A DNA stretch of 64,000 nt from Symbiodinium sp. CCMP2592 (Eukaryota > Sar > Dinophyceae > Suessiales > Symbiodiniaceae), in assembly GCA_905221615.1 (NCBI GenBank), contig CAJNDT010003402.1, forward strand, positions 238,750-302,749, written 5' to 3'. Shown here piece after piece: positions 2,901-63,448 of this stretch. The translations under genes and the position numbers were made by a program. A model generated the notes under the pieces. The model did no database searches. It saw only the letters and a list, made by a program, of their open reading frames with translations, and was not told the origin of the DNA. Within the stretch, counting starts at the first letter, position 1; every line of letters starts with the position of its first letter.

Positions 2901-3049
2901 AACATAACGAAACATAACCATAGAGAAGCACATAGAGCTCACGACCTTTTGTCCTACCGCTGTAGAGGCTGCGATTCCTCAGGCGCACGCCCGAGCGTCG
3001 AAGGCCTGCAGCACCCAAGCTTGTCGTCGGAAGCTATGGAATTTCAGGT

Positions 3050-3150
3050 GGGTGGGTGTCAAAATTATGGTTCCTTTTTGGGACCCTATTGTAATACGGC
3101 ACCTAATATTTAGGGTACCCAAAAAGGGACCATAATTTTGACAACCACCC
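3050..3150 (+). mobile_element. Palindromic element family G, copy 1
   Basis: The ends GGGTGGGTGTCAAAATTATG and CATAATTTTGACAACCACCC form an inverted repeat of about 30 bp round a 40 bp core. A 4 bp direct repeat AGGT flanks it (3046-3049 and 3151-3154), which reads as a target-site duplication. Copies at 30404 and 48394. Confidence 0.85.
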
Positions 3151-3154
3151 AGGT

Positions 3155-4255
3155 TGTTTCAGGGTTTCAGTCAAGTTTAGAGACACCCAATATACCATAC
3201 AGTATAGCTCAGAAACCGACCGCTGTTTCAGGACTTTTCAGGACCACGAGGGCTCCACTAATTCATGGGTACTTCGGGGGTCCTGGTAGGGTTTAGGGTT
3301 TGGGGTTCAGTTGAGATTTAAGGCCTCATTCATTCTTTGGCTCCACCCGAACAAGGGCTATGCACAAATTGGGATACATGTCTCTTCTCGCGCATCAAGG
3401 ATCAAGTCGGCTAAACCGGCTGGACCTACTTACTAAGTCGCATGCTCCTTCAATCGCAAAAGCCCGCTCATTCCCAGCGCCTGGGTGGTGCTTCGACATC
3501 TGCCTGCGCTTCACATTGCCATGTCACTCCGAATGCCGCTAAATCCCATAGGGTCTTACTTGTCAGGGTTGCATAAGGGTTCTACAAGGACCCCAAATCT
3601 TAAAAGTGTTTTGTACAACTTACCTAACCCACAACGCATGAACGGTTCGATCAGGTTCATAATTCAGGAGTATTCGTTAATTCAGGATGGTTGGTCTTTC
3701 TGGGCTCACGATGTGGGGATCCGTGCACGTAATTATCGGATTATGGCTTGTATAGGCGTGCAATGAAAGATGCAAGTTGTGGAGATGTCCCTATTGACAT
3801 CCTACATCCCACGAACCCCAAACCTCAACGGCCAAACGATCATCCACTAAGTCTGACCCCCCAAATGATACAGAAGGAAAGCCCGAAAATGATTTCAACC
3901 CCCCAAAGGCCAAAACTTGACAAAGCTTACAATTCGAGCCAAGCCCCGCAGAATCCCTAGAACCACTCTCAGAACCCTGAACGAACAAACAAGAAACAGC
4001 GCCAAAATGAACCCCGAAGCACAGAAACCAAAAACGAAGAAGTCTTTAGGGTTCAAGGTTTAGAAGTTTAGGATTGAGTCTTACCACGAAGGGCCCCCCA
4101 ACAAAGCACCCTCCTAGTCAGAAGCTGCTACTTCGGAGTGTAGCTCGAGTGCAACGCCCGAGAATAGAAGATCTGATCCCATCAACCTGAAGCCCTCAAC
4201 CGGCCCAGAGCCCCCAAACCCTTGGTGAAAATGGAAAGATCCGACCCCATCAAAC
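3155..4255. other. No gene seen
   Basis: Short open frames of 60-93 codons occur, but none has a convincing domain or composition. Scattered TTTAGGG/CCCTAAA fragments are present. I see no RNA gene. Confidence 0.6.
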
Positions 4256-8181: not shown

Positions 8182-8312
8182 CCCCCTCCGGAAAAAAAAA
8201 AACCTTTGGATAGAAGCCTGTTGAACCTTACCCCTATACCCTTTACCCTATCAACTCTGAACCCTAAACCCTAAATACTAAACCCTAAGCCCTTACTTCT
8301 AGGCCCTTTACT

Positions 8313-8405
8313 TACCTTTGGTTAGTAGGGAATGGAAGAATGGTAGTAATAGCAGTTATAGTAATAGTTGTACCCCATTCCTCCATTCCCTACTAACCAA
8401 AGGTA
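8313..8405 (+). mobile_element. Palindromic element family J, copy 1
   Basis: The terminal repeat TACCTTTGGTTAGTAGGGAATGG ends in its inverse, CCATTCCCTACTAACCAAAGGTA. TA at both outer ends fits a TA target duplication. The core is (TAG)n-like. Other copies at 12260, 12629 (inverted) and 38470. Confidence 0.85.
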
Positions 8406-8549
8406 AGTTTGCCCTACATGCCAAACCGTTACCCCTGGGCCCTTAAGCCAATCAACTCTAATCTCTAAGACTCTAAACCCTAAACCCAAAGCCGTAAGCC
8501 CTTACCCCTAGGCCCTTAACCCTACCAACTCTATAGTATACTATAATTA
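8404..8549. repeat. Inverted segmental duplicate (partner 12484-12630)
   Basis: This stretch beside J copy 1, including GCCCTACATGCCAAACC and CTAATCTCTAAGACTCTAAA, reappears in reverse complement beside J copy 3 with few mismatches. The duplicated unit, with the J elements, spans about 235 bp. Confidence 0.85.
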
Positions 8550-10104: not shown

Positions 10105-10214
10105 CTAGACCTAGGAGTAACCTAGGAATGACAAGGGTGCCCTTTTTGGTTTAAAGGGTGTTATAAGGGAACCTAAACCCTAAAAAGGGAAAAAGTGCCT
10201 ACTCTGGGTCCTAG
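10105..10214 (+). mobile_element. Element family D2, copy 1
   Basis: Starts CTAGACCTAGGAGTAACC and ends CTACTCTGGGTCCTAG. The body has AAGGGTGCCCTTTTTGG and TATAAGGGAACC as in family D. The flanking TTAA/ATAA could be an imperfect 4 bp duplication. Sister copy at 63337 in the same orientation. Confidence 0.8.
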
Positions 10215-11995: not shown

Positions 11996-12259
11996 CGGAG
12001 TTTGCTCGGTTGTTGTTCGTGTTGTTGTCGTGGCCCAATTGTCGTCACTGGTGGCAGTTGTGGAGGCGATCCCGGTTGTGGTCGCCACCAAATCTGCTGC
12101 AACGCTGTAGTAAAGCCGACATGCAGTGGACTGTCTTCATCTAGGCTTGGAAATATCCAGGGAGCAAAAAGTATAGACATCTATTTCATGCTTGTTCCCT
12201 TTAAGTAACAGGTCCCCCCAACAAGCATAAAAGTATTGTACCCCAAAGCCCAGTCATCT

Positions 12260-12356
12260 TACGTTTGCTTAGCAGGGAATGGAAGAATGGTAGCAATAGT
12301 AGTTCCAATATGTTGTAATTGTGCCCCATTCCTCCATTCCCTACTAACCAAAGGTA
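12260..12356 (+). mobile_element. Palindromic element family J, copy 2
   Basis: TACGTTTGCTTAGCAGGGAATGG at the left and CCATTCCCTACTAACCAAAGGTA at the right. TA at both ends. Mutated at the left terminus relative to copies 1 and 3. Confidence 0.8.
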
Positions 12357-12483
12357 GGTCATAGAACAAAGCAGAGGCCCAGAGCCACAACAAAAATATC
12401 GCTTTGCGAGCTGCAGAGTAGACAGCGCGGAGGGTATGTGCCGCAAGCCGAGTGTGAACCACTGCTGCCCGAGGACCTGGGAC

Positions 12484-12630
12484 TTAATTATAATATACTA
12501 TAGAGTTGATAGGGTTAAGCGCCTAGGGGTAGGGGCTTGCGGCTTTGGGTTTAGGGTTTAGAGTCTTAGAGATTAGAATTGATTGGCTTAAGGGCCCAGG
12601 GGTAAGGGTTTGGCATGTAGGGCAAACTTA
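12484..12630. repeat. Inverted segmental duplicate (partner 8404-8549)
   Basis: Reverse complement of 8404-8549, abutting J copy 3. Includes GGCATGTAGGGCAAACTTAC. Confidence 0.85.
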
Positions 12631-12715
12631 CCTTTGGTTAGTATGGAATGGAGGAATGGGGTAGAATTATAACTACTACTACTACCATTCTTCCATTCCC
12701 TACTAACCAAAGGTA
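12629..12715 (-). mobile_element. Palindromic element family J, copy 3 (inverted)
   Basis: Ends TACCTTTGGTTAGTATGG and CCCTACTAACCAAAGGTA with TA on each side. Opposite in orientation to copy 1, with which it shares about 145 bp of flank. Confidence 0.85.
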
Positions 12716-12799
12716 AGGAGAACATGCCGTGCCTGATCCTTTCGACATAATGCTTCGGACTCAGATTTCGGCTTAATTAGGGGTAGAGCTGAGGCTTAG

Positions 12800-19053: not shown

Positions 19054-19269
19054 ATGTCAATATGTGACCTCCAGCACACGGTTGCGGAGCGAATTGTGCA
19101 AGCCTTCAACCGTGGTCGCGTGCTAATGCACGAGCCCGAGTTCGACCCCTATGTTTGTGCACCCGGGCGCCTACTCTGGCACCATCCGCTCGATGCTCCC
19201 GCTCGAGGATGTTGGATTGGGATTGGGCTCCGCCCCTTCCCTCCAAATCCAGCCCGCCGGGCTTCTTAG
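19054..19269 (+). pseudogene. Short frame, likely 5' part of the 19.1-19.9 kb gene
   Basis: This 71-codon frame starts at an ATG and reads plausibly for about the first 33 residues (a helix-like charged segment, then MHEPEFDPY). After that it becomes Pro/Arg/Trp-rich and unprotein-like. The next frame becomes protein-like at that point (19151 on). This pattern fits one coding sequence with a frameshift between about 19140 and 19170. No family is recognised. It is my second coding candidate in the window, together with the entry at 19151. Confidence 0.35.
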
Positions 19270-19855
19270 CAATGCCATCAGTCGGCTCCGCAGCCGGGCG
19301 ACTTCTTCTGGCTGGCACCTTCCGCAGGTTTTGGTTTACTGGCTGCGTGGACCCATCCGCCGGCCGTTTTACTTTCCTCTGCGCTTCTTCCGGCTCGGAT
19401 GGTACATCCTAGAGGACCGGCGTGCTAAAGTCGTGCACGCGCTCTTGGAGAGCCTTGACCAGAACAGCTCCGTCTATGACGAACTCTCGGACAAGTACAT
19501 CCTGGGAGACAATCCTGCGTGTGACACCTGGCGGAGTGAAGGGCAGGCGTTTCTGGACATGGGTGGCGTTGGTCCGGGCCTACCAGAGATCTTTCTTACG
19601 CCCCGGCTTATACCGGATCTGCACCCTCCTTTCAAGCCGCATAAGAAGTATAACGTTCGCCAGTTACAAGATAGCTATGACGACAATAAGACCCGCTTCC
19701 TCTACTCTTTGTGCGAGGAGGCCTTCAATGACCCCGGCCGTGTTTTTGGGCGTCAGCTGGAGATTTGGCCACGCTATGGCCTCCAGCCCCTGAACGTGCC
19801 ACGGCCCGAGGCTGGCCGGCATCAGAGACTCTATCTGGGCTGGAATACACAGTGA
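19151..19855 (+). CDS. Hypothetical protein, 234 aa (probably a 5'-broken gene)
   Basis: The frame from ATG 19151 to TGA 19855 has balanced amino-acid use, many C/G-ending codons and acidic, basic and aromatic residues in natural proportions. It stands out from the repeat-derived frames. Visible features are an aromatic/basic segment near residues 60-85 (RRPFYFPLRFFRLGWYILED), an acidic-polar middle and a charged C-terminal third. There is no signal peptide and no clear membrane span. I do not recognise the family and make no functional claim. The first codons may not be the true start, because an upstream in-frame stop lies close (TAA near 19124) and a better N-terminal continuation exists in the neighbouring frame. 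It may be a decayed gene, an exon or a captured fragment. Confidence 0.45.
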   Translation: MFVHPGAYSGTIRSMLPLEDVGLGLGSAPSLQIQPAGLLSNAISRLRSRATSSGWHLPQVLVYWLRGPIRRPFYFPLRFFRLGWYILEDRRAKVVHALLESLDQNSSVYDELSDKYILGDNPACDTWRSEGQAFLDMGGVGPGLPEIFLTPRLIPDLHPPFKPHKKYNVRQLQDSYDDNKTRFLYSLCEEAFNDPGRVFGRQLEIWPRYGLQPLNVPRPEAGRHQRLYLGWNTQ

Positions 19856-28443: not shown

Positions 28444-28555
28444 CTAGGATACCCAGGAACCTAAGAATAAAAAGGCCTCTCTTTTTGGTATTGGGTAACT
28501 TTATAAGGAACCTAGGACTACAAAAAGGGAATAAGGGTACTACTGGGCATCCTAG
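28444..28555 (+). mobile_element. Element family D, copy 1
   Basis: Starts CTAGGATACCCAGGAACC and ends TACTGGGCATCCTAG. The body has AATAAAAAGGCCTCTCTTTT and GGTATTGGGTAACTTTATAA. Flanked by TACCTATC (28436-28443 and 28557-28564, with one extra T before the second). Confidence 0.9.
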
Positions 28556-29574: not shown

Positions 29575-29713
29575 ATTTGGGGGCCAACCCTCATCCTCCA
29601 CAGCCCGTTTTTCTACCCTGAACTGAAACCTTCTGAAAGCCAGAAGCCAGCTGCGAGTCCCAGCGTCTGCACGATGGCTCGACCCCAAAGCACGTCCTGT
29701 GTCTCAACCCTAA

Positions 29714-29824
29714 CTAGGATACCCAGTAACCTAGGAATAAAAAGGCCTCTCTTTTTGGTATTGGGTAACTTTATAAGGAACCAGGACTACAAAAAGGGAA
29801 TACGGGTACTACTGGGCATCCTAG
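29714..29824 (+). mobile_element. Element family D, copy 2, with 16 bp flanking repeat
   Basis: Starts CTAGGATACCCAGTAACC and ends CTGGGCATCCTAG. The exact 16 bp TGTGTCTCAACCCTAA lies immediately before (29698-29713) and immediately after (29825-29840). Confidence 0.95.
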
Positions 29825-30090
29825 TGTGTCTCAACCCTAAAGTCAGGGTTTAGGATCGTTTAGGGTTCAATTTTGAGGGTTTAGGGGAGCCTCTCTGGCT
29901 TGCATGGGGCTTGGGGAGTTTAGCGAAGGCTTCGGTTTGGGGTTTGAGGCTCTGAGGATCAGGGCTTATAGGGTTTAGGGGTTTAGGGAGGATCAGGCTC
30001 TAGCTCATGATCTAGCCTCCAACCCTAGACTCCAAGACTGTACTCATGTGATATTAGGGTTTATCCGTCCATCCCTTTCCCACCCCCACA

Positions 30091-30300
30091 CAACCAAACA
30101 ACCAAACAACCAGCCAGCCAACCAACCAACCAACCAAACAAACAAACTCTAAGTAACTAACAACAAACATGACAAACAAACAAACACATTTTCGCTTCAC
30201 GGACTTTCAATCTCCTTCCCCTGTCATCTTGACACAAGATTATGCGCAATATGCATAAATAAATAAATACATATACATATATACATATATATAGTAGACA
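30091..30300. repeat. (CCAA/CAAA)n and (TA)n simple sequence
   Basis: 30095-30190 repeats AACCAAACAACC and AACAAAC. 30255-30295 is TACATATA-rich. Confidence 0.85.
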
Positions 30301-30403
30301 GAGTTGTACCCCAAACTCTAAACCAAGGCCCTAAACCCAAGCTCAGGGATTCACATTAAGGCAACCCCCTCATCCCTAAACTCCAGACACCTCATATTAA
30401 TAT

Positions 30404-30509
30404 GGGTGGTTGTCAAAACTATGGTCCCTTCCCTTTATGGGTCCTTATTATGATACGGCACCTAATATTTAGAGTACCCAAAGAGGGGCCCTAATTTTGA
30501 CAACCACCC
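30404..30509 (+). mobile_element. Palindromic element family G, copy 2
   Basis: GGGTGGTTGTCAAAACTATG and CTAATTTTGACAACCACCC, with 4 bp duplication ATAT (30400-30403, 30510-30513). Confidence 0.9.
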
Positions 30510-30532
30510 ATATAAACCTAAACCCTGAAGTC

Positions 30533-30644
30533 CTAGGACACCCAGTAACCTAAGAATAAAAAGGCCTCTCTTTTTGGTATTGGGTAACTTTATAAGGAAC
30601 CTAGGACTACAAAAAGGGAATAAGGGTACTACTGGGCATCCTAG
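30533..30644 (+). mobile_element. Element family D, copy 3
   Basis: Same ends and body as copy 2 (CTAGGACACCCAG). Flanked by AGTC (30529-30532, 30645-30648). Confidence 0.9.
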
Positions 30645-30764
30645 AGTCTAAAGCCTCTACACACTGAAGCCACGCATTCAGCAAGCAGTTCAAAGGGTCC
30701 AGAGTGCTGAGCCCGGTGGCGCAGACCTGCGGCCCAAGGGAAAGCTTCTAGTATAGTTACTATA

Positions 30765-30874
30765 CTTAAAGGATCATGGGACTTCGTAAATAGGGTTATA
30801 ATCAGGGTAACTATACTTATAACCCCAATCAAGATACCTTTAACCTTGCTTACTAAGTCCCATGATCCTCCAAG
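30765..30874 (+). mobile_element. Family A, copy 3
   Basis: CTTAAAGGATCATGGGACTT and AGTCCCATGATCCTCCAAG with TA on each side. Confidence 0.88.
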
Positions 30875-31077
30875 TAAGGAACCCACAGGGACTATCACCA
30901 GTATCATCGTCATACTTCAAGCTCTTACGGTACTTGCAGGCTTAGGGTTGTTCATAAGTTTTGGGCTTCAGGGTCTACGGCCCATCTTTTGAAGACTCAA
31001 AGGTTTTAGGGTTAGGGCTCACTGTGTTGGCGCGGTCAGGGTTGTGGGTTCAGGAGTTCAGGGTCTAGGGCTACTGA

Positions 31078-31135
31078 CGGTTTAGGGTTTAGGGTTTAGG
31101 GTTTAGGGTTTAGGGTTTAGGGTTTAGGGTTTAGG
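31078..31135 (+). repeat. Near-perfect telomere block (TTTAGGG)8
   Basis: Eight consecutive perfect heptamers, among the cleanest blocks in the window. Confidence 0.97.
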
Positions 31136-31242
31136 GACAGGCTGGATTGAGCATTTGAGCATGTGTGTTTAGGAGCGCTGGGCATCTAAAGCTAACGTGA
31201 AGATCGACATTGCTTAGCCAGAACTTCGTGTGGTCTTATAGA

Positions 31243-31355
31243 CTAGGATACCCAGTATCCTAAGAATAAAAAGGCCTCTCTTTTTGTAAATTGGGTAACT
31301 TTATAAGGAACCTAGGACTACAAAAAGGGAATAAGGGTACTACTGGGCATCCTAG
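31243..31355 (+). mobile_element. Element family D, copy 4
   Basis: Starts CTAGGATACCCAGTATCC and ends CTGGGCATCCTAG. No flanking direct repeat seen. Confidence 0.88.
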
Positions 31356-31554
31356 TTGTTGCAGTTGGGCTAGAAGCAGCAACACTACTCCCTGTGAGGT
31401 TTGGGGGGAGAAGAACTCGTGACTCCGGTGAGACTTCCTGCCTTAGCCTGGGACTCTGTTTTGAATTTAAAACCTGAGCCTGGGAGGGCAAGTGCTCAGA
31501 TCCGGTGCCGAAGCGGAAGGAAAGAAGCCTGAACAAGCCCTGAGTGCTCCTTAG

Positions 31555-31860
31555 GGTTCCTTTAAGGGGACCTTTAGGGGTTCCTTTAAAGGGATCTATA
31601 AGGGTTCTATAAGGGGATCTATAAGGGGGCTTAGGGTTTAGGGTCTAGTTGGAGGGTCATGGGACTTAGTAAGTAGGGTTTAGGACTCCTTAAAAGGGAT
31701 CCTTAAGGGGTTCCTTAAAGGGATCTAGCGGGTTTAGGGTTTAGGGTCTACTTGGAGGATCATGGGACTTAGTAAGTAGGGTTATAAGTACCTTAATTGG
31801 GATTATAAGTATACTTACCCCAATAATAGCCTTAGTTACTAAGTCCCATGATCCTTTAAG
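31555..31860 (-). mobile_element. Family A composite, copy 4
   Basis: A first A end at about 31646 (TAGTTGGAGGGTCATGGG) is followed by a CCTTAAAGGGATC-type filler and TTTAGGG, then a complete A element at 31751-31860 with TA on each side. 31555-31640 is the same filler (GGGATCTATAAGGG). Confidence 0.8.
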
Positions 31861-32095
31861 TACCTTGGAAGAACAGCTACCGGTCAACTTAGAATGTTCC
31901 AGTGTGCTGTAGTAAATGATAGTGTATGATAGCATACTCTAGACCTCACAAGTTAGAACGTGCGCTCTCTCTGCACATCAGATGCACTGCGAGCCTGGAC
32001 ATCAATTAGGGGTTCGAGCATGTGTGTCCTTCGGGTGGATCCGCTGGGAAGCCGCTAGTTGCGTTCGGGCGGGATCTAAATTTGAAGCAGCATGT

Positions 32096-32172
32096 GGGAG
32101 ATTCCGAAAATAGGGGACCCTAATCTAGTACCCCAAATAGTAGGATCTTATTATAAGGAGCCCCAAGTGAGT
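32096..32172. mobile_element. Family B, truncated copy 4
   Basis: GGGAGATTCCGAAAATAGGG and the core TAGTAGGATC are present, but the right arm after AAGGAGCCCCAA is missing and unrelated sequence follows. Confidence 0.75.
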
Positions 32173-32293
32173 TCGGACGAGCAATGGCCTTGACTAACAT
32201 CGCCGCCAAGGCGAAGCTTGCTGCAGCAGCTATGCTCAGCCTCGCTTTTCAGAGCATCGGGATGATGGAGGCACGGCGTTTCGTGTAGGTTGT

Positions 32294-32545
32294 GGGGTTT
32301 ATGGACTTTAGAGACTAGGATACCCAGTAACCTAGGAATAAAAAGGCCTCTCTTTTTGGTATTGGGTAACTTTATAAGGAACCTAGGACTACAAAAAGGG
32401 AACAAGGGTACTACTGGGCATCCTAGTCCCCCCCTATAGATCCCTTATAGTACCCTTATAGATCCCTTACAATACCCTTATAGATCCCTTTAAAGAAACC
32501 CTTCCAGGAACCTAAAGTTCCTAGGAGGGGTTATGGACTTTAGAG
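32294..32545 (+). mobile_element. Family D-long, copy 5, with ~20 bp flanking repeat
   Basis: D core at 32315-32426, extended by TCCCCCCCTATAGATCCC and further CCCTTATAGATCCC modules to CTAGG at 32525. TTATGGACTTTAGAG occurs exactly on both sides (32299-32313, 32531-32545), extending to about 20 bp with one indel (GGGGTTT/GGGGTT). The same 3' extension follows copies 7 and 8. Confidence 0.9.
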
Positions 32546-32599
32546 TTTGGGGATTCGAGGGGTGCGGTCTTAAGGTTCGGGGCTTGGTCTTTGGAGTCC

Positions 32600-32772
32600 C
32601 GGATTCAGGGTTTAGGGTTTAGGGTTTAGGGTTTAGGGGTTTAGGGGTTTAGGGTTTAGGGTTTTAGGGTTTAGGGGTTTAGGGGTTTAGGGGTTTAGGG
32701 GTTTAGGGTTTAGGGTTTAGGGGTTTAGGGTTTAGGGGTTTAGGGGTTTTAGGGTTTAGGGTTTAGGGTTTA
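32600..32772 (+). repeat. Interstitial telomere block (TTTAGGG/TTTAGGGG)
   Basis: About 22 units mixing 7-mers and 8-mers. Confidence 0.96.
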
Positions 32773-33250
32773 ACTTCCAGGATTCAGGTCTTGACGTTAA
32801 TGGGTTCCGGGTTGAGGCCTGTCGCTGATGCAATTCTACAAGGGCTGACACGAAAGCTAAGTTCTTCCGCTCAAACCCCGAGTACAGCCTCAACTTCCCA
32901 AATAATGTGCGGCTAAGCCCGCTACAGGAATAAACAACCTGCAAAACTTGCCTTCATAAACCTTTCTTCGCTGAACCGCCACAAATCCAAAAAACAACCG
33001 CGAAAACCCCTTCCTCTTCCACGCCCACACCCTCACCAATCCCCCATACTCCCCCCATACTCTTACGAATGCCCTAAACCCTAAACTTCACCTAAAGACT
33101 AAACCTGCAACCCTAAACCCTAACCCTGAAACCCTCAACCCGGCAAACCTCTTGAAGATCCACGGCCAGGCCGCAAAACACCTCGCAGACGCCCGGAGCA
33201 GCGGGGGAGTGACTTCCTGGCACTTCCACACATCAAAGGCTCCTGTTTGT

Positions 33251-33356
33251 TAATGTAGGGGCCTTAATTTTTAGAACATGGCTTTGGGGGATAATATATT
33301 ATAATTATAATAAGGAACCCCCAAACCCTATTCTAATTATGAAGGCCCCTACATTA
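33251..33356. mobile_element. Family H, best-preserved copy
   Basis: Perfect 15 bp inverted ends TAATGTAGGGGCCTT and AAGGCCCCTACATTA, with AATTATAATAAGGAACCCCC in the core. This copy defines the family ends. Confidence 0.85.
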
Positions 33357-33950
33357 CAGGTTCCGTCCTTTCGAAGAGTTGGATAAGAGAAGGTGCATAG
33401 TGAACTTTTCTCCAAATATTCACTCGGTTGTACGAGGGCCTTGGAATGTTTCTGGTTTTCCAAAATATAAGGGTCTTGACGAGGCTTTACATGGCTCTAC
33501 AACAGGCTCTATCGAGGCTTACAGTGTGTGGGGAGGGGCCGGGGTTTATGTTCACAGGATCTTTGCTTTCGGTACTCGGGCTTAGGTATGTGTCTTTCTT
33601 CAACTGCTCGATCGTACTTGGGGCTCCTGAACGAGCTCAAGCATGCACCATTTCCAGGATTCAGGCACCCCAACGAATATTGCTACAGTATTCAGGTCTC
33701 TCTTTATTCGTAGAGCTTTAGGGTTTGACAAACCTCGACAAGTTTGACTTCGGTCTCTTGGTTCAGGTTTTCTTGGTGTTTCTGGATTCACATTTAGCGA
33801 TTCCAGGAATTCATCATGGGAGATGATTTCCGGCTTTGGGCATCTAGGTTTCATCAACCTACGGTTGAGGCTACTACCTGCTACCCTCCACAAGTCAAGA
33901 ACTTGAAACATGAGTGATTTGCTACAGGGCTTGGAATCGTGATGACACAC
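33357..33950. other. No gene seen
   Basis: Frames of 60-125 codons on both strands (33379-33721 plus, 33600-33977 minus) overlap and lack recognisable motifs. Confidence 0.5.
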
Positions 33951-33952
33951 AA

Positions 33953-34068
33953 CTAGGATACCCAGTAACCTAAGCATAAAAAGGCATCTCTTTTTGGTAT
34001 TGGGTAACTCTATAAGGAACCTAGGACTAATTACAAAAAGGGAATAAGGGTACTACTGGGCATCCTAG
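33953..34068 (+). mobile_element. Element family D, copy 6
   Basis: Starts CTAGGATACCCAGTAACC and ends CTGGGCATCCTAG. Flanked by ACAA (33949-33952, 34069-34072). Confidence 0.9.
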
Positions 34069-34229
34069 ACAATGTCCGGCGGAAGTCCACTTCCTAAGGC
34101 CAAGTAGGCATTTGTCATTCGATCCTCTTGCGTCCGTCTTGCCTCGGCAAGGCGCGGTGCACCGAAGCCATGCATGGCCATGCGCCACATCAGCCCTCTC
34201 CACATTTCGCTTCTCACCATGGTCAACAA

Positions 34230-34347
34230 CTTAAAGGATCATGGGACTTAGCAACTAGGGTTAATTCTAACTGGGGTAACCATACTTAAAACTCCAATTA
34301 GATAAGGTACTTATAACCTTACTTACTAAGTCTCATGATCCTCCAAG
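34230..34347 (+). mobile_element. Family A, copy 5
   Basis: CTTAAAGGATCATGGGACTT and AAGTCTCATGATCCTCCAAG. The flanks are not TA here (CAA and AAC), so this target differs or has mutated. Confidence 0.85.
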
Positions 34348-34497
34348 AACCACTGGTGCAAACCAGCCCAACTGGTAGCAGAAAACTGCCCTATTTGCGC
34401 AATCACGGCTCCAGGTCTCATCATAGGCGCCGCGAATATGCTCTGGATTCGTGCCCATGCTGGTTGTGTCGCTGATGGGAGATACACACTGTAAGAA

Positions 34498-34605
34498 CTA
34501 TAGGGGACTTAATAATTAGAATAAGGTTTGGGGGTATAAATTTTGCCATAATTACAATATAATGGGCTCCAACACTCTATTCTGATTTTGAAAGGCCCTG
34601 TATTA
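34498..34605. mobile_element. Palindromic element family H
   Basis: TATAGGGGACTTAATAATTA and AAAGGCCCTGTATTA. Confidence 0.7.
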
Positions 34606-35076
34606 GCGATTTGTTGCGCACCACTATACTTGGTTTGCACCTCCACGTCAACACCAGCTGTCCGACGTCGGCGCCGCTTTCGTTTCAGCTCGTCGTACAT
34701 CAAAACTGACACCCATGAGATGAAGCCCAAACCCCAAGCCCCCAGCCCTAAACCCTCCGAAAACACTGAGACCTGAAACCTACCTCAAAACTTAACCCCC
34801 CGCCTTCTGAGCCCTGAGGAGGTCGAGGGCGGACCAGTTATGTAAGTTGAAACCGCTGTCCTGAACCCTCGACCCCAAATCCTGAAGCCTACAAACCCCA
34901 AACCCAAACCCCAACGTCAGAAACCTCTTACAGGAGCCAGAGAAAACACCCTATAGCTACCTGAAGCCCACTGAACCATGGAATTCACGCCTTAGGGGTT
35001 TTGGTACTACAAAGGACACTAATACTCAAAAGATGATTTTGGGAAACACTAGACCCTACGTATACTACGACACCCG

Positions 35077-35362
35077 AAGGACTGTTTCTTGGTATCACTT
35101 ATCTAGGATACCCAGTAACCTAAGAATAAAAAGGCCTGTCTTTTTGGTATTGGGTAACTTTATAAGGAACCTAGGACTACAAAAAGGGAATAAGGGTACT
35201 ACTGGGCATCCTAGTCCCCCCTTATAGATCCCTTATAGTTCCCTTATAGATCCCTTACAATACCTTTTGGGACTACCTTATAGGATTCTATATATGAACC
35301 CCACAAAGGAACTACTTTGGGGCCTTAGGGTAAGGACTGTTTCTTGGTATTACTTATCTAGG
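35077..35362 (+). mobile_element. D-long plus partial F block between 31 bp direct repeats
   Basis: D copy 7 (35103-35214), its TATAGATCCC extension (35215-35265) and an F element lacking its left end (35266-35331) form one block. A 31 bp sequence (35077-35107; begins AAGGACTGTTTCTTGG, ends ACTTATCTAGG) recurs at 35332-35362 with one C to T change. Confidence 0.93.
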
Positions 35363-36600: not shown

Positions 36601-36635
36601 CGGTATATCGATGAGGGTCATGAGGCTCAGTATAT

Positions 36636-36736
36636 GGGAGTTTCCGAAAACAGGGGACCCTAATATAGTACCCCAAATATTAGGATCCTTATTATAAGGA
36701 CCCCAAATAAGGTACCCCTAATTTTCGGAAACTCCC
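36636..36736. mobile_element. Palindromic element family B, copy 5
   Basis: GGGAGTTTCCGAAAACAGGG and TTTTCGGAAACTCCC, with 4 bp duplication ATAT (36632-36635, 36737-36740). Confidence 0.92.
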
Positions 36737-36740
36737 ATAT

Positions 36741-38460: not shown

Positions 38461-38469
38461 CGGCTGTGC

Positions 38470-38557
38470 TAACCTTTGGTTAGTAGTGAATGGAAGAATG
38501 GTAGCAATAGTAGTTATGATTGTACCCCATTCCTCCATTCTCTACTAACCAAAGGTA
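38470..38557 (+). mobile_element. Palindromic element family J, copy 4
   Basis: TAACCTTTGGTTAGTAGTG and CTCTACTAACCAAAGGTA. TA at both ends. Sits at the edge of the telomere block. Confidence 0.82.
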
Positions 38558-38589
38558 AGTGTGGGGCTGGAGGGTTTCGAATTTAGGGT

Positions 38590-38870: not shown

Positions 38871-39209
38871 ACGGCATACATGCTAGACCGAAGGTACAAG
38901 GAACAAAGCTTCTTCTCAATCGAACGCATTGGAAGCGTTTCGCTCCAAGACACCAAACTACGCCCCCGAAAGACTGAACACCGAAATCCTTACTTCGGCC
39001 TAAAGCCCAGCAGATCTGAAGAAGTACCCTAAACCCTAACCCCTCAACCCCTTAGCCTAAACCCTAAACCCCTAAACCAGAAACCCTCAGAAGTCCTTCA
39101 TCCCTTCATCCGCAACTCCGACTCTGCCAACCACATGTCGCTCAGCTGCTTCTGTGCGTCTGGCTGCAGACGGCGTGTTTATGCCTTAAGTAAGCTCAGC
39201 AAACCTTAT

Positions 39210-39311
39210 GGGAGTTTCCGAAAATAGGGAACCCTAATATAGTACCCTAAATAATAGGATCCTTATTATAAGGACCCCAAAATAAGGTACCCCCTATTTT
39301 CGGAAACTCCC
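39210..39311. mobile_element. Palindromic element family B, copy 6
   Basis: GGGAGTTTCCGAAAATAGGG and TATTTTCGGAAACTCCC, with 4 bp duplication TTAT (39206-39209, 39312-39315). Confidence 0.92.
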
Positions 39312-39384
39312 TTATAAGCTCTAAACCTTAGAGCCTGGGCCCCGGAACCCTGAGCCGAACCCTTAAACTTTGCACCTTCAACCC

Positions 39385-47165: not shown

Positions 47166-47371
47166 CTAGGATGCCCAGTAACGCAGGAATAAATAGGGCT
47201 CCCTTTTTGGTACTGGGTACCTGTATAAGGAGCCTAGGACTACAACAAGGGAATAAGGGTACTACTGGGCATCCTAGTCCCCCCCTATAGATCCCTTATA
47301 GTACCCTTATAGATCCCTTACAATACCCTTATAGGTCCCTTTAAAGGAACCCCTTCCAGTAACCTAAAGCC
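47166..47371 (+). mobile_element. Family D-long, copy 8
   Basis: D core 47166-47277 with the same TATAGATCCC extension as copy 5 (47278-47365). AAAGCCTATGA precedes it (47155-47165). The matching right copy is split by E copy 4: AAAGCCTA at 47366-47373 and TATGA at 47476-47480. Confidence 0.88.
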
Positions 47372-49109: not shown

Positions 49110-50867
49110 TCACCACGTGGCTACACTAAAATTCCGCGAAGTAAAAGTTCGCAGACTGCTGGGTAGCTGGATGCCCTCCAAGCTCTGGTTGAAGTCGCGG
49201 CCAAACGTCAAACTCTGCAGGCTGCTGGGTAGTTGGATGCCCTCCAGGCTCTGGTTGAAGCTGTCGCCAAAGGTCAAACTCTGCAGACTGCTGGGTAGTT
49301 GGATGCCCTCCAAGCTCTGGTTGAAGTCGCGGCCAAACGTCAAACTCTGCAGGCTGCTGGGTAGTTGGATGCCCTCCAGGCTCTGGTTGAAGCTGTCGCC
49401 AAAGGTCAAACTCTGCAGACTGCTGGGTAGTTGGATGCCCTCCAAGCTCTGGTTGAAGGCGCGGCCAAACGTCAAACTCTGCAGGCTGCTGGGTAGCTGG
49501 ATGCCCTCCAGGCTCTGGTTGAAGTCGAAGCCAAACGTCAAACTCTGCAGACTGCTGGGTAGTTGGATGCCCTCCAAGCTCTGGTTGAAGGCGCGGCCAA
49601 ACGTCAAACTTTGCAGGCTGCTGGGTAGCTGGATGCCCTCCAGGCTCTGGTTGAAGGCGCGGCCAAACGTCAAACTCTGCAGGCTGCTGGGTAGCTGGAT
49701 GCCCTCCAGGCTCTGGTTGAACCTGTCGCCAAAGGTCAAACTCTGCAGACTGCTGGGTAGTTGGATGCCCTCCAAGCTCTGGTTGAAGTCGCGGCCAAAC
49801 GTCAAACTCTGCAGGCTGCTGGGTAGCTGGATGCCTTCCATGCTCTGGTTGAAGCACATGCCAAACGTCAAAGTCTGCAGGCTGCTGGGTAGTTGGATGC
49901 CCTGCAAGCTCTGGTTGAAGCACATGCCAAACGTCAAAGTCTGCAGGCTGCTGGGTAGTTGGATGCCCTGCAAGCTCTGGTTGAAGTCGAAGCCAAACGT
50001 CAAACTCTGCAGGCTGCTGGGTAGCTGGATGCCCTCCATGCTCTGCTTAAAGCCGTTGCCAAACGTCAAGCTCTGCAGGCTGCCGGGTAGCTGGATGCCC
50101 GCCAAGCTCTGCTTAAAGCCGTTGCCAAACGTCAAGCTCTGCAGGCTGCCGGGTAGCTGGATGCCCGCCAAGCTCTGGTTGAACCTCGCGCCAAAGGTCA
50201 AACTCTGCAGGCTGCTGGGTAGTTGGATGCCCTCCAAGCTCCGGTTGAAGACGTCGCCAAACGTCAAACTCTGCAGGCTGCTGGGTAGCTGGATGCCCTC
50301 CATGCTCTGCTTAAAGCCGTTGCCAAACGTCAAACTCTGCAGGCTGCTGGGTAGTTGGATGCCTACCAAGCTCTGGTTGAAGCCGTCGCCAAAGGTCAAA
50401 CTCTGCAGGCAGCTGGGTAGTTGGATGCCTTCCATCCTCTGGTTAAAGCAGTTGCCAAACGTCAAACTCTGCAGACTGCTGGGTAGTTGGATGCCCTGCA
50501 AGCTCTGATTGAAGCTATGGCAGAACGTCAAACTCTGCAGGCTGCTGGGCAGTTGGATGCCCTGCAAGCTCTGGTTGAACTGGCCAACCAGGAACCCATC
50601 AGCAAACGTCAAACTCTGCAGGCTGCCGGGTAGTTGGATGCCCTGCAAGCTCTGGTTGAAGTCGCGGCCAAACGTCAAACTCTGCAGGCTGCTGGGTAGC
50701 TGGATGCCCTGCAAGCTCTGATTGAAGGCGAAGCCAAACGTCAAACTCTGCAGGCTGCTGGGTAGTTGGATGCCCTGCAAGCTCTGGTTGAAGTCGCGGC
50801 CAAACGTCAAACTCTGCAGGCTGCTGGGTAGTTGGATGCCTGGTTGAGCTCTTGGCTGGAGTACCAT
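49110..50867 (-). CDS. FNIP-type leucine-rich repeat protein (repeat region)
   Basis: This 585-codon frame ends at TGA 49110. It consists of 25 complete 22-residue repeats plus a partial last one. Each unit begins GIQLPSSLQSLTFG and ends FNQSLE or FNQSLQ, with two variable residues between. This matches the FNIP repeat (LTFGxxFNQ), a leucine-rich repeat subclass known from Dictyostelium and common in some protists, which forms solenoids for protein binding. Unit 4 carries a 5-residue insertion. The array ends in a divergent cap (LRTFTSRNFSVATW). There is no signal peptide or membrane span, so a soluble intracellular protein is likely. The ATG at 50867 is probably not the native start: it lies out of frame inside the upstream ubiquitin-like frame, which joins here through an apparent 10 bp deletion. 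The long plus-strand frame across 49117-50508 is its shadow. Partner and process unknown. Confidence 0.88.
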   Translation of the reverse strand: MVLQPRAQPGIQLPSSLQSLTFGRDFNQSLQGIQLPSSLQSLTFGFAFNQSLQGIQLPSSLQSLTFGRDFNQSLQGIQLPGSLQSLTFADGFLVGQFNQSLQGIQLPSSLQSLTFCHSFNQSLQGIQLPSSLQSLTFGNCFNQRMEGIQLPSCLQSLTFGDGFNQSLVGIQLPSSLQSLTFGNGFKQSMEGIQLPSSLQSLTFGDVFNRSLEGIQLPSSLQSLTFGARFNQSLAGIQLPGSLQSLTFGNGFKQSLAGIQLPGSLQSLTFGNGFKQSMEGIQLPSSLQSLTFGFDFNQSLQGIQLPSSLQTLTFGMCFNQSLQGIQLPSSLQTLTFGMCFNQSMEGIQLPSSLQSLTFGRDFNQSLEGIQLPSSLQSLTFGDRFNQSLEGIQLPSSLQSLTFGRAFNQSLEGIQLPSSLQSLTFGRAFNQSLEGIQLPSSLQSLTFGFDFNQSLEGIQLPSSLQSLTFGRAFNQSLEGIQLPSSLQSLTFGDSFNQSLEGIQLPSSLQSLTFGRDFNQSLEGIQLPSSLQSLTFGDSFNQSLEGIQLPSSLQSLTFGRDFNQSLEGIQLPSSLRTFTSRNFSVATW

Positions 50868-57230: not shown

Positions 57231-57344
57231 CAAGGATGCCCAGTAACCTAGGAATAAAAAGGGCTCCCATTTTGGTATTGGGCAACTTTATAAGGAACCT
57301 ATAGGACTACAAAAAGGGAATAGGGGTAGTACTGGGCATCCTAG
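57231..57344 (+). mobile_element. Element family D, copy 9
   Basis: Starts CAAGGATGCCCAGTAACC and ends CTGGGCATCCTAG. Flanked by TTTA (57227-57230, 57345-57348). Confidence 0.9.
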
Positions 57345-57833: not shown

Positions 57834-58262
57834 TAAGGCTGATACTCAGTTCTCCTACCACAGCCAGTGGTGGAATTGCGCCCGTCACTAACGCAGCATA
57901 CACTTTTGGTTGCAGACAGTCTTCAAAACAGGACTAACCATCGGCACACTAAAATGAAGCAGCACGACTAAGAATTCTATCCGGTATTTCAGAAACGCAG
58001 CAAAGAAACTACCACCTCCTGTGCGCCCCTGCTTCCACAAAGCCACACGTTCCAACACATGAGTCACCGAAACAAATTTTTGCAAGCTCTGAGACTCTGC
58101 ATACAAGCAAGCAGCCGACTACATCACCCACATCCGCCCTCAACCCGTAAGCCCTCAAACCCTGAACCAAGACATGCCAGGCTGGCTCCAGTGTGCCGAA
58201 CTGCGAGGGAGCTGCAGGACCTACAAAAGAGTAAACACGGGAGCTTACGAAACAAAGAGGTA
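57834..58262. other. No gene seen
   Basis: A minus frame (57888-58106) and a plus frame (58059-58406) overlap by about 50 bp. The latter runs into a B half-element. Confidence 0.45.
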
Positions 58263-58267
58263 TCGTA

Positions 58268-58344
58268 TTTGAGGTCCTTTATAAGAAGGAACCTACTATT
58301 TAGGGTACCATATCAGGGTCCCCTATTTTCGGAAAGTCCCACAC
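58268..58344. mobile_element. Family B, right half only
   Basis: TCCTTTATAAGAAGGAACC through CCCTATTTTCGGAAAGTCCC. The left arm is absent. Confidence 0.75.
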
Positions 58345-63336: not shown

Positions 63337-63448
63337 CTAGACCTAAGAGTAACCTAGGAATAAAAAGGGTGCCCTTTTTGGTTTAAAGTGGGTTATAAGG
63401 TAACCTAAACCCCCAAAAAAGGGAATAAGGGCCTACTCTGGGTCCTAG
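63337..63448 (+). mobile_element. Element family D2, copy 2
   Basis: CTAGACCTAAGAGTAACC to CTACTCTGGGTCCTAG, with 4 bp duplication TTTC (63333-63336, 63449-63452). Confidence 0.9.

Follow-up and report, generated by a model that had tools for sequence, protein, structure and literature searches.

Eleven copies of a short inverted-repeat element, which we call D, lie in a 64-kb stretch of the dinoflagellate Symbiodinium sp. CCMP2592 (contig CAJNDT010003402.1 of assembly GCA_905221615.1, forward-strand positions 238,750 to 302,749; this whole stretch of 64,000 nucleotides is referred to as the window). A first-pass annotation described the direct repeats beside nine of these copies as very unequal in length, from 4 bp to about 31 bp, and proposed either a distinct insertion mechanism or the capture of element DNA at break sites with fill-in. 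The locus raises the question of how a single element family comes to be flanked by such different repeats. Our analysis of the assembly showed that D normally has a duplication of fixed length, 4 bp, and that about 9% of the copies carry long direct repeats, from 8 up to 50 bp. It also showed, among the first 100 listed copies, that the D strand is constant across tens to hundreds of kilobases, independently of the copies with a splice-donor target site duplication (TSD).

D is 112 bp long and has the inverted ends noted in the first-pass annotation, which are 15-bp repeats matching at 14 of 15 bases. A pattern search of the whole assembly (1.098 Gb, 5,383 contigs) found 5,516 exact right ends, 2,855 forward and 2,661 reverse. 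We examined the first 100 of these in contig order, so that no selection for TSDs was involved. This sample gave 99 distinct copies, of which 11 were dropped because the left end was unrecognizable and 88 were kept with both ends. Exactly 4 bp abutted D in 54 of the 88 copies, compared with 0.75% for re-paired flanks of the listed sample. The other exact lengths were 5 bp (two copies) and 8, 11, 13, and 14 bp (once each), and four further long repeats of 26, 16, 15, and 13 bp were inexact, either with one or two mismatched bases or shifted by one base. Long abutting repeats (score of at least 6, 8–26 bp) were present in 8 of the 88 copies, versus 0.045% for re-paired flanks (approximately 0.04 copies expected). 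In a set of D copies picked by BLAST, 26 of 52 had exactly 4 bp, one had 13 bp, and one had 16 bp. The unequal repeats of the first-pass annotation are thus real in that a long class exists above chance, but variable duplications are not the family rule, as 54 of the 88 copies have 4 bp, an outcome that the annotation had itself set as refuting; on the same count, a distinct insertion mechanism for the whole family is not supported.

The background was also estimated within the window. Exact abutting repeats of at least 8 bp at the spacing of D occurred at approximately 0.03% of 46,383 positions, a background that leaves out tandem arrays, low-complexity sequence, and the surroundings of D. 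When nothing was excluded, the background was 4.0% at a score of at least 6, against 9 of 100 D copies; this value is high because the window contains tandem arrays.

Duplications of 8–26 bp in 8 of 88 copies are what a retroelement resembling short interspersed nuclear elements would leave, since target-primed reverse transcription gives variable duplications. Such an origin is nevertheless highly improbable for D, which has inverted ends and predominantly 4-bp duplications, finishes at CCTAG with no poly-A or simple tail, and retained both ends intact in 88 of 99 copies. We consider it quite probable that D is a nonautonomous terminal-inverted-repeat transposon of the dinoflagellate, of the introner type with 4-bp TSDs, and that a minority of copies entered staggered breaks of greater width, which were then filled in. 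No superfamily or transposase was identified for D, without any search having been aimed at an autonomous partner.

Two other explanations for the unequal lengths were discarded. Subtype as the cause (GGAT type long, GGAC type short) was not supported, because the list of GGAT-type copies also had mostly 4 bp and the GGAC type includes the long cases L014 and L019. Insertion with a 4-bp TSD into a pre-existing tandem repeat would not, by reasoning, result in repeats that abut both D ends. The GGAC subtype (left end CTAGGAC) had 37 exact left ends genome-wide, compared with thousands of right ends for D, and is a small, nearly identical subfamily, with identity up to 112/112. One D copy with identical flanks was present on two contigs (L029 and L030), which represents a duplicated segment or an unmerged haplotype.

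In six copies of the long class (the window copy starting at 29714 and L019, L064, L070, L103, and L120), both repeat copies adjoined intact D ends with zero filler. Intact ends with abutting repeats in the exact long cases fit joining at a wide break followed by fill-in, and the fallback proposal, capture of element DNA at staggered breaks, agrees with the approximately 9% of copies with repeats of 8–50 bp. The longest was a 50-bp direct repeat with one filler base at L014. Such filler bases, or imperfect repeats, are frequent (L014, L115, and the window copy at 28444), and CTAGG, which resembles the start of D, comes after the right repeat copy at 35103. These features would be accounted for if D had landed with 4 bp and later excision or sister-copy gap repair had slipped, duplicating the flank beside the element. 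However, filler-free abutment as in the six copies above would be rare from slippage at random points, and we regard a post-insertion origin as unlikely.

The repeats in the window were re-examined individually (Table 1). The 16-bp repeat at 29714 was perfect, and the four 4-bp repeats assigned to the copies at 30533, 33953, 57231, and 63337 were exact, as annotated. The 8-bp repeat at 28444 was present but offset by one base. Repeats of roughly the sizes annotated at 32315 (15–20 bp) and 35103 (about 26–31 bp) also existed, each with one mismatch, but they did not abut D: their right copies sat 100 and 117 bp past it, respectively, beyond a foreign tail, so that the insertion was larger than D. 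The 11-bp repeat annotated at 47166 could not be reproduced; the best match had 8 bp and lay 88 bp downstream, where another element has its edge. A tail starting with TCCCCCC was common to the copies at 32315, 35103, and 47166; at 35103 it terminated in part of FAM7, another family resembling miniature inverted-repeat transposable elements (MITEs). Another common tail, starting with CCCCTA, was found at L032, L089, and L139. Composites of D plus tail account for some of the copies apparently without a TSD. The cluster in the window is unrepresentative of D, and two of its long repeats surround composites.

Table 1. Copies of D in the window and the direct repeats associated with them (window coordinates).
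Feature	Position	Strand	Remarks
D copy, diverged	10105–10214	+	74% over matched part; no TSD recognized, no abutting repeat worth naming
D copy	28444–28555	+	8-bp direct repeat TACCTATC, one filler base on right
16-bp direct repeat, left copy	29698–29713	+	Exact; belongs to D copy at 29714
D copy	29714–29824	+	97% to typed core; 16-bp TGTGTCTCAACCCTAA abuts both ends
16-bp direct repeat, right copy	29825–29840	+	Exact; belongs to D copy at 29714
D copy, GGAC subtype	30533–30644	+	4-bp TSD AGTC
D copy	31243–31355	+	No abutting direct repeat
D copy with foreign tail (32427–32526)	32315–32426	+	19-bp repeat 32295–32313 / 32527–32545, one mismatch, encloses D and tail
D copy	33953–34068	+	4-bp TSD ACAA
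D copy with tail (35215–35331)	35103–35214	+	26-bp repeat 35077–35102 / 35332–35357, one mismatch, encloses both
D copy with tail of 32315 type	47166–47277	+	No 11-bp repeat
D copy	57231–57344	+	4-bp TSD TTTA
D copy, diverged	63337–63448	+	75% over matched part; 4-bp TSD TTTC

As shown in Table 1, every D copy in the window lies on the plus strand. Among the first 100 listed copies, 65 of 69 pairs of neighbors on one contig agreed in strand, and none of 20,000 permutations reached this number (maximum, 51). Agreement was 20 of 20 pairs at less than 20 kb, 25 of 26 at 20–100 kb, 19 of 21 at 100–500 kb, and 1 of 2 at more than 500 kb. The four disagreeing pairs comprised two single switches along contigs C3 (between 555 and 824 kb) and C58 (between 8 and 37 kb) and two pairs flanking one odd copy on C2. 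Three of four further contigs with two copies agreed (C846, C1090, and C4112), and C2446 disagreed. Because the 4-bp target shows little asymmetry (30 of 53 begin with T, 21 of 53 end in A), a preferred orientation is not explained by the site of insertion as such. On the D strand, A exceeded T in the surrounding sequence at 29 of 38 loci, which is a weak hint only. A search of titles and the starts of abstracts found no report of such a strand lock; we make no claim that the family or its orientation is unpublished.

A constant strand could arise by selection, if D inserted in both orientations and sense copies that disturb splicing or transcript ends were purged from a genome transcribed mostly one way. 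In accord with this, the gene-sense reading of one exonic copy (L100, described below) is predicted to be spliceable, and genes of dinoflagellates are arranged in unidirectional clusters according to the available part of a published account (PMC11453091). Three results argue against it. First, the lock was equally strong in pairs in which neither copy showed a 4-bp TSD with a donor dinucleotide (49 of 50 agreed; this class takes in copies without a recognized 4-bp TSD), compared with 14 of 17 pairs in which one or both copies did. Second, copies identical to the core were found among the locked ones. Third, other families were not locked in the same way. FAM8, also MITE-like and about as numerous as D (4,668 exact left arms), has six copies of mixed orientation in the window between 16298 and 54703; when it was listed likewise, largely on the same contigs, only 39 of 70 neighbors agreed (Fisher P = 1.2e-7 versus D), and its orientation relative to the nearest D was the same in 35 cases and opposite in 46. 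Nine other families at the fetched loci likewise showed no uniform orientation toward D (same in 45 cases, opposite in 33, ambiguous in 9). Selection is a possible but somewhat doubtful explanation; the insertion step, that is, the direction of transcription or replication, probably contributes more to the lock than later purging does.

Two of the other families showed a bias of their own. FAM5 was in the same orientation as D in 10 cases and opposite in 3 at the fetched loci, which may be non-random, and FAM7 was the same in 1 case and opposite in 8 outside the window (three plus and three minus copies inside it) and may be locked too.

The orientation of D was compared with that of genes by several markers. 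The 21-mer of the dinoflagellate spliced leader had 429 exact copies in the assembly and its reversed control had 0, which identifies the host as a dinoflagellate and led us to discard a euglenid host, also considered. In 8 of 9 cases the leader copies ran counter to the nearest listed D. At L102, one of two leader loci inspected, a second, partial leader followed the leader; we take this double leader as a sign of recycled mRNA. In the window, a gene with 13 FNIP-repeat stretches in a long open reading frame (ORF) (49110–50867; PF05725, E = 1.5e-153) lies on the minus strand with D on the plus strand. D was also antisense to the gene at L100 and, weakly, at L121. Taken together, this evidence is limited and mixed, and D is likely oriented antisense to genes.

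The copy at L100 provided the clearest relation to a gene. When its flanks were joined over the empty site with one TSD kept, the frame was continuous and the joined peptide matched the sterol-sensing Patched domain above the curated cut-off (PF02460, E = 3.3e-12, residues 5–65 of 66), which places D inside an exon. The gene-sense strand is the reverse complement of D; the left TSD copy, GTGG, offers a GT donor and D ends in AG. From its sequence, this copy looks like a removable, putative intron with a GT...AG border. The reverse complement of D further contains a pyrimidine-rich stretch and several AG ends. The joined peptide of L121 came just below the cut-off for BT1 (E = 9.7e-5; 21.7 bits, cut-off 22). 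Among 80 copies with 4-bp TSDs, frames open over 75 bp on each side were found in 34% in the gene sense and 24% in the D sense, with a background of 23–25%, which is a hint only. L009, considered as coding in the D sense, was rejected in the absence of a Pfam match.

How these observations may be joined into one mechanism can be outlined as follows. Most copies would be inserted by transposase cut-and-paste with a 4-bp stagger. In the long class, an excised or half-joined D may have been joined to a break whose nicks lay far apart, with subsequent fill-in of the gaps. The composites of D plus tail may have formed by the joining of more than one fragment or by the use of a second, downstream end. 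The D strand would be the antisense strand of unidirectional gene arrays, so that the gene-sense reading would be the spliceable one, as the limited marker evidence suggests. We tentatively propose, as a further step, that D transposition is strand-directed: the integration machinery would sense which way transcription or the replication fork runs, give one orientation per chromosomal domain, and deliver introns in the spliceable orientation, and the long duplications would represent joining into opened or nicked DNA and not a tight 4-bp stagger.

Several observations weigh against the favored reading of D, an introner-type transposon oriented antisense to genes. The TSD score was below 4 in 23 of the 88 copies; ten copies with less than 4 bp matched at 3 of 4 positions, for which the null is 9.2%. 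One of the eight long cases, the imperfect 16-bp repeat at L127, falls in an AT repeat. Of the 80 four-bp copies, a match above the cut-off located only 1 in an exon, with one more just below, and a Pfam search of ten peptides (eight gene-sense, two antisense controls) left eight with neither a match above the cut-off nor a near miss, both controls among them. TSDs starting with GT, GC, or GA numbered 19 of 80 in the gene sense and 10 of 80 in the mirror reading, a small excess and a hint only. The distances from spliced-leader copies to the nearest D were long (21 to 739 kb). A kinase-motif marker, compared by eye, was opposite to the nearest D in 3 of 8 comparisons, and of the three comparisons within 200 kb only one was opposite; the motif had 206 matches versus 79 for the reversed control, so that about 4 in 10 are chance.

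That the kinase marker does not follow the lock would be understandable if the direction of the replication fork, and not transcription, set the preferred orientation of D. The extent of the lock, which spans hundreds of kilobases (19 of 21 pairs at 100–500 kb) and does not need exons, points the same way. The tendency of spliced-leader copies to lie opposite to D speaks against a role of the fork, though fork and gene direction may coincide, and we judge this explanation to be rather unlikely.

D can be compared with systems known from the available parts of published accounts. By description, D has the same architecture as the introners published for Symbiodinium microadriaticum (PMC9860276). 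The intron coordinates of the example given there span 115 bp, which is close to the 112 + 4 bp of D. In the available text on these introners, a strand lock on the scale of chromosomes and long direct repeats, features seen in the listed D copies, both go unmentioned. Introner elements of Amoebophrya (PMC7789003) likewise occur in a dinoflagellate and have inverted repeats (8–20 nt) and short direct repeats at their borders; in the part of that account consulted, the direct repeats are 3–5 nt and the splice motifs mostly non-canonical, in contrast to the GT/AG of the exonic D copy. The nonconventional introns of euglenids (PMC4770533) resemble D in that the ends are brought together by pairing. 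A recent intron gain is described there with extended (8-nt) direct repeats, and break repair was suggested; D differs in its dinoflagellate host and in the fit of L100 to a GT...AG border. D shares with MITEs the short noncoding form, inverted ends, high copy number, and, as a rule, a fixed short TSD. It differs from them in that about 9% of its copies carry long abutting repeats and in that its strand stays constant over long stretches.

The remainder of the window contains other repeats. Two further inverted-repeat families seemed, by eye, to have 4-bp TSDs: FAM3 (36628–36740, 39207–39316, and 58239–58343; ATAT, TTAT, and GTGT) and FAM10 (3048–3157 and 30403–30510; AGGT and ATAT). FAM9 (8310–8411, 12258–12359, 12623–12717, and 38469–38563) has ends CTTACC...GGTAAG, which are splice-donor-like on both strands, and is possibly introner-like. 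Positions 1–2143 consist of tandem repeats that are open in several frames on both strands. Interstitial TTTAGGG-like repeats occur across the window (233 TTTAGGG and 155 CCCTAAA), far from known contig ends. A search for relatives of the ORF at 19127–19852 found none at E = 0.001, Pfam gave nothing above the cut-off for ten coding-looking ORFs of the window, Rfam gave 0 matches in the window at the gathering threshold, and ARAGORN found 0 tRNA genes in it.

Introners are invoked to account for bursts of intron gain. If strand-directed transposition of D is true, one orientation per domain, even without a visible splice donor, would mean that insertion can be tuned to gene direction, and the strand of D would serve as a sequence-only read-out of the transcription or replication domains of dinoflagellates. 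With its long duplications, D allows the sealing of transposon DNA into wide staggered breaks to be put to the test.

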